Shown: one piece after another, positions 15,905 to 20,149 of the stretch
Numbering within the stretch: position 1 is the stretch's first letter
How the letters are laid out: each line of letters starts with the position of its first letter
Assembly: GCA_934776915.1 (NCBI GenBank)
Contig: CAKVNA010000003.1
Location: forward strand, 1-20,149
Length of the DNA: 20,149 bases
DNA from: an uncultured Clostridia bacterium
GTDB taxonomy: Bacteria; Bacillota; Clostridia; Christensenellales; UBA1242
Direction of reading: 5' to 3'
Notes under the pieces: model-generated
Told to the model about the DNA's origin: nothing
Databases searched by the model: none
What the model saw: the letters and a program-made list of their open reading frames with translations, nothing else
Position numbers and translations under genes: made by a program

Positions 15905-15930
15905 GACAATTTAAAAGGAGAAAACCAAGA

Positions 15931-16170
15931 ATGACCAGATATGAACGCTTTGTGTTATGGCTGAATAGATTTTATCATAAGCAAAACAAGATAACAATTT
16001 GCGTGCTATACACACTCATTATGATTATCCTTGGAGTTATGATATATGGTGCAACCCACCAACAAGCAAATTCAAATATTTCAGTAAAATATATTCGTCC
16101 AACACTCACTTTGAATTTTGATGCAAACGGTGGCGAGTTATCCACGACAGGGGGGGGGGGTAACCTCTAA
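15931..16170 (+). CDS. N-terminal part of a membrane-anchored surface protein, frame broken by G11
   Basis: This frame has a good ribosome site (AAAGGAG, ten bases upstream). It encodes a short basic cytoplasmic start and one transmembrane helix (ITICVLYTLIMIILGVMIYG, residues 21-40) with no cleavage site, so the rest should face outward. The start of an InlB B-repeat (LTLNFDANGGELSTT) follows. At 16150-16160 it enters eleven G and, as sequenced, stops after 79 residues. Removing one G would give STTGGGVTSKQIS and continue without interruption through 17137 as a 401-residue protein, with the B-repeat completed by GDSYGDLPVPYL. I therefore read 15931-17137 as one gene in the OFF phase; a sequencing or assembly error in the run is the alternative. 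Confidence 0.8.
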   Translation: MTRYERFVLWLNRFYHKQNKITICVLYTLIMIILGVMIYGATHQQANSNISVKYIRPTLTLNFDANGGELSTTGGGGNL

Positions 16171-17137
16171 GCAAATATCACTGGGCGATAGTTATGGCGA
16201 TTTGCCTGTGCCATATCTAAACGAAAAGAGTGCTTTTTTTGGCTGGCAGCAAGAAAATGTTAAATCACAAAAAATTGACTTAGGCTCAGTTTGGCAAGGC
16301 TCTGCAACATTCAACGGCATAACATGGACATCTCTTTCCGACGGTGGAATGAGCGTCAATGGAACACTGGGAACTAAAAGTACTTATTCTAATCCACCAA
16401 GTGCATGGGATACTCGCTGGGTGGTTGACCTTAGTTTTTTTGAAGTGGGCAAGCAATATTGTCTGCGTGCCTCTAGTTCAAAAATTAAAGCGCTGTTTCG
16501 AGCCGAAACTGGCAGTGTGACTATTTGGGAAACTTCAGTCTATAAATTTACGGGGCAAGAGAGCCAAGTTGCTGTCTATCCACAAATAGATAGAGTTGGG
16601 GGTGGAACTGTTGTTGAAAGTGTTTCAAACGAAACTTTTTATTTATATCTTGAGGAGTTTGTCCCTGCGACAAAAACATTGACCAATCAAAATCTGCAAA
16701 ATAGTGAGGAGAAACTTACTGCTATTTGGAAACCTAATCTTCTTAATGTTGCTGATCTAGAAAATCTTAATTATTATGGAATGAATTGGCAAAGTTTGGG
16801 ACAAGGACAACTAAAAATAGAAGGAACAAGCACGGAAAGACCAAATTCAAGTGGGACGACTTTTTATCCATCAACAAGCCAAGTGATTGACATCACTGAT
16901 AAAATTTCTAATCTTGTAACGGGCAAAAGATTTTACTTCCTTTCGGATAAGTCGAAAGAGGAAGTTGATGTTGCGTATATTATAAAAGTAACACGCGTGG
17001 ATGGAGAAAGTGCTTATTATCGAGATGAGTATATCTCAGAAGGGAGTGCTGTTGTAACTAAAGTAGAGGTTTATATTCAAGCACAGTTTGACATAACATA
17101 CAACGATATAATTTACCCGATATTCACTACAATATAA
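16118..17137 (+). CDS. C-terminal part of the same surface protein (InlB-type repeat, two tandem beta domains)
   Basis: The frame is open from 16118 but has no ribosome site, and its first residues (MMQTVASYPRQ) are an out-of-frame reading of the upstream half. The real protein content begins after the G run at about 16161. It completes the InlB B-repeat (KQISLGDSYGDLP...FFGWQ). Two tandem domains of about 130 residues follow that share NGITWTSLSDGGMSVNGT and YGMNWQSLGQGQLKIEGT. This is the pattern of a beta-sandwich found in Clostridia surface and phage-tail-like proteins, probably a binding domain. There is no LPXTG motif, so anchoring depends on the N-terminal helix. Translation needs the G-run frame to be restored. 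Ligand unknown. Confidence 0.75.
   Translation: MMQTVASYPRQGGGVTSKQISLGDSYGDLPVPYLNEKSAFFGWQQENVKSQKIDLGSVWQGSATFNGITWTSLSDGGMSVNGTLGTKSTYSNPPSAWDTRWVVDLSFFEVGKQYCLRASSSKIKALFRAETGSVTIWETSVYKFTGQESQVAVYPQIDRVGGGTVVESVSNETFYLYLEEFVPATKTLTNQNLQNSEEKLTAIWKPNLLNVADLENLNYYGMNWQSLGQGQLKIEGTSTERPNSSGTTFYPSTSQVIDITDKISNLVTGKRFYFLSDKSKEEVDVAYIIKVTRVDGESAYYRDEYISEGSAVVTKVEVYIQAQFDITYNDIIYPIFTTI
16150..16160 (+). repeat. Homopolymer of 11 G inside a coding region
   Basis: This run of eleven G stands in an AT-rich genome. Ten (or thirteen) G would fuse the two frames; eleven reads to TAA at 16168-16170 and twelve reads to the TAA directly after the run. It is a typical layout for slipped-strand phase variation. 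Confidence 0.95.
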
Positions 17138-17142
17138 ATAAA

Positions 17143-17178
17143 AAAAAGGCTTAAATTGATTTAAATTTAAGCCTTTTT
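17143..17178. terminator. Bidirectional terminator between surface-protein and PHP genes
   Basis: AAAAAGGCTTAAATT (17143-17157) pairs perfectly over 15 bp with 17164-17178 around GATTTA. A and T tracts on both sides serve both strands. The PHP gene stop (complement of 17151-17153) lies inside the stem. Confidence 0.92.

Positions 17179-19020: not shown

Positions 19021-20149
<1,129 letters not shown>

Follow-up and report, generated by a model that had tools for sequence, protein, structure and literature searches.

Results

A surface-protein gene broken at a tract of eleven G

The DNA analysed here, referred to as the window, is the whole 20149-base stretch at positions 1 to 20,149 (forward strand) of contig CAKVNA010000003.1 (assembly GCA_934776915.1), from an uncultured Clostridia bacterium of the Christensenellales lineage UBA1242. 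Our subject is a putative surface-protein gene at 15931-17137, which is divided between two reading frames at a homopolymeric G tract. The gene and its surroundings consist of the following parts.

15914..15920, + strand: ribosome-binding site AAAGGAG, 10 bases 5' of the ATG (read from the sequence)
15931..16170, + strand: first frame, 79 codons, with cytoplasmic start, membrane helix and first half of an InlB-type repeat (from frames and relatives)
15994..16056, + strand: membrane anchor, spanning about residues 22-42 (hydrophobic on visual inspection; helical in the modelled structure of P0001, the closest relative)
16150..16160, + strand: G11 tract, proposed slippage switch (run count, shuffles, Markov model)
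16163..17137, + strand: second frame, the remaining repeat and the ectodomain, 324 codons and a stop (open frame, relatives)
17143..17178, both strands: terminator-like hairpin between the gene and a convergent PHP gene (sequence)

Read directly from the window, positions 16150-16160 are eleven G, the only run of G or C of at least seven bases anywhere in it. For G runs of this length, the window's first-order Markov model gives an expectation of 0.0013, and none of 100 dinucleotide shuffles contained one, in agreement with an earlier sequence-only reading of the same DNA, which had called the tract unlikely by chance. The break at the eleven G described there is likewise present: the first frame runs from the ATG at 15931 to a stop at 16170, just 3' of the tract, and the second is open over 16163-17134, where the remaining two frames have 19 and 30 stops, and is closed by a stop at 17135-17137.

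A protein family with a constant anchor and differing ectodomains

The protein database contains three relatives of the piece 3' of the tract. P0001 (402 residues, 96% identity with the second piece) passes the tract site without a break, P0002 (82% identical) is a gene call that starts internally, and P0003 (52% identical) is called from an out-of-frame start just 5' of the tract. With residues 1-110 of P0001 as the query, 14 proteins running through the tract site were obtained, P0001 included, ten of which have the whole, nearly constant anchor and four of which are called from an inner Met; in P0012 and P0016 the glycine stretch is shorter. The ectodomains vary among these relatives and some are mosaic. 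A C-terminal part is common to P0004, P0006 and P0015, P0008 and P0010 are nearly alike, and P0005 carries LamG-type domains. A sister genome of the same genus (G060) holds five in-frame copies of 366 to 773 codons, matching P0001 in its N-terminal part only. By sequence comparison, the window gene thus appears to be a member of a multigene family with a shared anchor and differing ectodomains.

The transmembrane anchor assigned by the sequence-only reading is borne out by a hydrophobic segment near residues 22-42 and by the AlphaFold model of P0001 computed from the sequence alone, in which residues 3-17 and 20-42 are helical with a predicted local distance difference test (pLDDT) of 72-77; in a second model, with 14 rows, the same region scores about 54-65. 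The assignment of an InlB-type repeat is supported by way of the family, PF09479 being above the cut-off at the corresponding place in 7/7 full-length relatives scanned other than P0001, but neither P0001 nor either window piece gave a match above the Pfam cut-off. The two tandem beta domains that had been proposed 3' of the repeat find weak support: in a single comparison the two halves align to each other over 62 residues with 26% identity (E 0.002), in a region where confidence is low in either model. With a mean pLDDT of 33 alone and 47 with 14 rows, the P0001 models are too poor for a fold, and a Foldseek search with the model returned nothing at an E-value of 0.001 or below, the best being a carbohydrate-binding module at 0.013; a glycan-binding ectodomain is therefore only a guess. 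On account of the anchor and the domains, the protein is presumably located at the cell surface.

The frame is repeatedly lost at the tract site

A search with the 79-residue stub yielded ten short proteins, all of which (10/10) depart from the frame of the family at the glycine site. One of them, P0017, is identical to P0001 for 76 residues and then out of frame, i.e. the register differs between two near-identical members, compared at the protein level. P0003 is also out of frame at the tract site, yet 320 codons 3' of it stay open, and the region 3' of the break is free of stops in the window, P0002 and P0003. A codon-compatibility test examined if the odd tails could come from the motif that follows in the family, read in another register. 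When all motifs were used, 7/10 tails were readable in this way over at least 8 residues, two of them at a different offset from the other five; 4/500 random 9-residue tails reached 8, three of the seven tails being longer than these controls. The odd start of P0003 fits the pre-tract motif in another register over 7 residues, as compared to at most 5 in 1000 random peptides. The recurrent break, the codon test and the P0003 start together indicate that the tract site is where genes of this family go in and out of frame, with the remainder kept open.

We consider it very probable that the window gene is a phase-variable (contingency) gene with a slipping poly-G tract. Three marks of such genes are present: a repeat well above chance lies inside the gene, the register sets the full or the truncated product (in the window frames and between P0001 and P0017), and the remainder of the gene is intact in the off register, being open in the window and in P0003.

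Several points weigh against this interpretation. The stub search was run with length limits that pre-select short proteins, and the ten cut against 14 read-through proteins therefore give no rate. With the first motif alone, only 3/10 tails in the codon test were clear of random, and the three further motif variants, taken from full-length members with a shorter repeat, were added after that result. The tails of P0017, P0018 and P0026 are too short for the test, and P0026 lacks the third glycine and may be broken in some other way. For P0001-P0003 and P0017-P0026 the tract lengths derive from the proteins only. Lastly, the five in-frame copies of G060 have G5-G6 at most in the tract region and no G run of at least nine bases occurs anywhere in that genome, which speaks against the switch being general.

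Alternative explanations of the broken frame

Homopolymers are error-prone and P0001, the closest relative, is in frame, and the contig might simply be wrong at the tract, with the real gene in frame. Such an assembly or sequencing error is very unlikely, however, as the same break is seen in P0017, in P0003 at 52% identity and in all ten stubs, in two registers, and as even an error would require a long tract in a conserved position. Slippery tracts can also act on RNA polymerase, and the loss of frame has the same register sense in P0003 as in the window, as if the out-of-frame gene were the normal one and transcriptional slippage or ribosomal frameshifting at the tract made a fixed fraction of full protein. 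A fixed signal of this kind would not need the in-frame and two out-of-frame registers that coexist among the relatives, for which reason replication rather than transcription slippage is the presumed cause, and we rate recoding as slightly less probable again than an error.

That the window frame is broken would also suit a plain pseudogene, disrupted once at a mutable site and now decaying. The 324 codons 3' of the break are nonetheless open and 96% identical to P0001, and P0003, though interrupted at that very site, remains open along its full length at 52% identity. Scattered disabling changes, which a plain pseudogene should accumulate, are shown by none of the relatives; these either read through or are cut at the glycine site, and both wrong registers occur among them. 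The preference for phase variation expressed in the sequence-only reading is thereby upheld, and decay ranks below recoding in our estimate. Two separate genes, one for a small membrane peptide and the other for a downstream protein with a start of its own, can hardly be credited: the P0002 and P0003 gene calls do start inside or out of frame, but fourteen relatives form a single chain of anchor (or anchor remnant) and ectodomain, no ribosome-binding site was seen by eye 5' of the inner starts in the window, and the second product would be without an anchor.

G tracts in coding regions of related genomes

In the genus, 7/12 genomes have a G run of at least nine bases. An Acyl_transf_3 acyltransferase gene (PF01757; G005, L102, 1133-2288) is split at a G9 and is a candidate for switching surface glycan modification. 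Likewise split at a G9, near its start, is a C5 cytosine DNA methyltransferase gene (G001, L103, 791-1871) whose piece 3' of the tract matches PF00145 (E 6e-67), making a phase-variable methylome possible. The other runs of the genus are intergenic or in odd stretches, except that the run in L097 is in frame inside an open gene. A brief low-complexity stretch of G082 (L098, L158) contains G runs of 18, 10 and 15, which may represent promoter cassettes that have decayed or noise from assembly.

Runs of at least 11 G occur in 108/294 genomes of the surrounding GTDB family (471 tracts) and in 46/391 genomes of a class sample that includes some family members (108 tracts), though the class genomes are larger overall. 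From the 471 we read 71 distinct tracts in context, a non-random choice stemming from 30 tool-picked loci and 40 regions mostly of tract-rich genomes. Fifteen of the 71 lie between a -35 and a -10 element (0.8% of random positions), 24 lie close to a start that is preceded by a ribosome-binding site and followed by a long frame (6% of random positions), and 32 are neither promoter nor 5'-coding, some of them at contig ends. The further G runs near the 5' ends of surface genes that the sequence-only reading had suggested looking for are thus present in the family; what it had overlooked are the promoter-spacer runs and the fact that the anchor is common to a multigene family.

Twenty of the 24 near-start tracts stand 7-10 codons 3' of the start. 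By register, 7 are in frame and 10 and 7 are out, a split as would be expected of a freely slipping tract. In G073 and in G011, paralogous genes within one genome have the same tract site and differ in register, and in G190 3/4 paralogous genes are in frame. Pfam matches were obtained for 7/10 pieces 3' of G tracts, namely methyltransferase, acyltransferase, glycosyltransferase, asparagine synthase, subtilase, InlB-type repeat and DUF6273. An acyltransferase-like gene (L107) looks degenerate, since all frames close within 27 codons 3' of its tract.

G tracts in promoter spacers

The pattern TTGACA-N4..9-G8+-TA is found in 69/294 genomes of the GTDB family, with up to 37 sites in one genome of about 1.2 Mb, and its backward control in none; in the class sample it is found in 9/391 genomes, two of them family members. 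Copies of one cassette in G021 differ in tract length (8, 9 or 10), and two surface-like genes of G002 carry a G9 between TTGACA and TACACT. The arrangement known from porA, with poly-G of differing lengths between the -35 and -10 elements, is by sequence position present in the related genomes only. A promoter role for the window's own G11 was considered and dropped, because no promoter-like pair spanning the tract was found.

The total spacer is 15-17 in 42/54 promoter-like sites of the examined loci, with a mode of 16, a description and not a test, because a similar pattern had served to choose part of the loci. Among 30 promoter-tract loci taken singly, 23 have a downstream frame and seven do not, in some cases because of a contig end. 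A strongly hydrophobic segment is present within the first 60 residues in 18/23 of these frames, and the remainder include, by eye, elongation-factor-like and HD-hydrolase-like ones.

Two further observations concern these cassettes. Several promoter-spacer tracts are followed 3', from the -10 element onward, by a long palindrome, e.g. TAAAATAGGGTATC...GATACCCTATTTTA, which is repeated between copies (L019 near 1053, L022 near 8997, L127, L142, L143, and L150 near 1501). In G021, G057, G129, G218 and G266, numerous contigs stop no more than about 150 bases from a G tract in a promoter, which looks as though repeated promoter cassettes break the assemblies.

Genomic setting

The window genes include dnaX, ybaB and a gene for a SipL-like (SPOCS) protein, and positions 19021-20149 are the first 1.1 kb of a 16S ribosomal RNA gene. 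A scan with DnaX of contigs from one genome per species gave 80 loci, the best eight 66-73% identical, from records of uncultured Clostridia or Christensenella, some of sheep, goat or deer gut. Neither piece of the window gene had a match in the 80 loci (tblastn, E 1e-3; some of the loci stop shortly past ybaB), and ybaB is directly followed by the next conserved gene in 4/8 of the best loci; the window gene is thus accessory at its locus. Relatives were present in 1/12 genomes of the genus and none were found in nine related genomes. A mobile-element origin is not supported, because two scans of viral contigs and searches of phage records and plasmids gave no relatives.

Discussion

Based on the window and comparison with its relatives, we propose the following mechanism. 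In the encoded proteins, a nearly constant N-terminus with a single membrane helix would be combined with an InlB-type repeat and with an ectodomain that can be exchanged. The poly-G tract, coding for glycines of the repeat, would slip during replication, such that one register allows the whole ectodomain to be made and the other two lead to a stop a few codons 3' of the tract, leaving a membrane stub of about 80 residues. The window would then represent a gene caught out of frame. Switching presumably takes place in the living population, and its benefit may be variation of surface binding or antigenicity.

The many similar G runs that related bacteria have in genes and promoters of surface-like proteins suggest that the group varies its surface cell by cell. 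It is likely, albeit less so than phase variation of the window gene itself, that a large slippage phasome extends across the whole family of small-genome uncultured gut Clostridia, with dozens of loci that each have their own G tract and with cells differing in their combination of surface proteins. The loci would be dispersed genes for surface proteins, acyltransferases, glycosyltransferases and DNA methyltransferases, built to one of two designs, with the tract either 7-10 codons behind the start or between the -35 and -10 elements, and the window gene would be one member of a constant-anchor, variable-ectodomain repertoire.

The slippage mechanism itself is already known. The pili of Bifidobacterium breve are switched by slippage of an intragenic G tract, measured by deep sequencing (PMC9187656), which is similar in that a surface structure of a Gram-positive gut commensal is affected; however, those are sortase-dependent pili of an actinobacterium, as opposed to a membrane-helix-anchored family of Clostridia inferred from assemblies. 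In Campylobacter and Neisseria, poly-G phase variation, including poly-G in the porA promoter, is similarly reported to involve frames and promoters of surface genes at many loci per genome (PMC6321876, PMC3639595), but with measured switching in Gram-negative bacteria, whereas other gene families of uncultured Clostridia are concerned here and switching is deduced. SZO08560 of Streptococcus zooepidemicus is also a proposed phase-variable Gram-positive surface protein with InlB-type (PF09479) repeats; its promoter is inverted by a recombinase and its anchor is of the LPXTG type, in contrast to slippage and a membrane helix in the window gene (PMC2654543). No report of a slippage phasome in Clostridia or Christensenellales was found in open-access papers, preprint and subscription literature being hardly covered, and the Bifidobacterium pili are the one worked slippage case that we found in the literature for Gram-positive gut commensals.

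The proposed reading also carries a warning, namely that such genes are broken up by gene callers into false proteins that are short or N-terminally shortened. Our reading can be tested without cultures, in existing metagenome reads. If it is true, slippage lets an uncultured group of Clostridia alter its surface from one clone to the next, which would bear on how strains, immune recognition and phage sensitivity are to be read in these bacteria.
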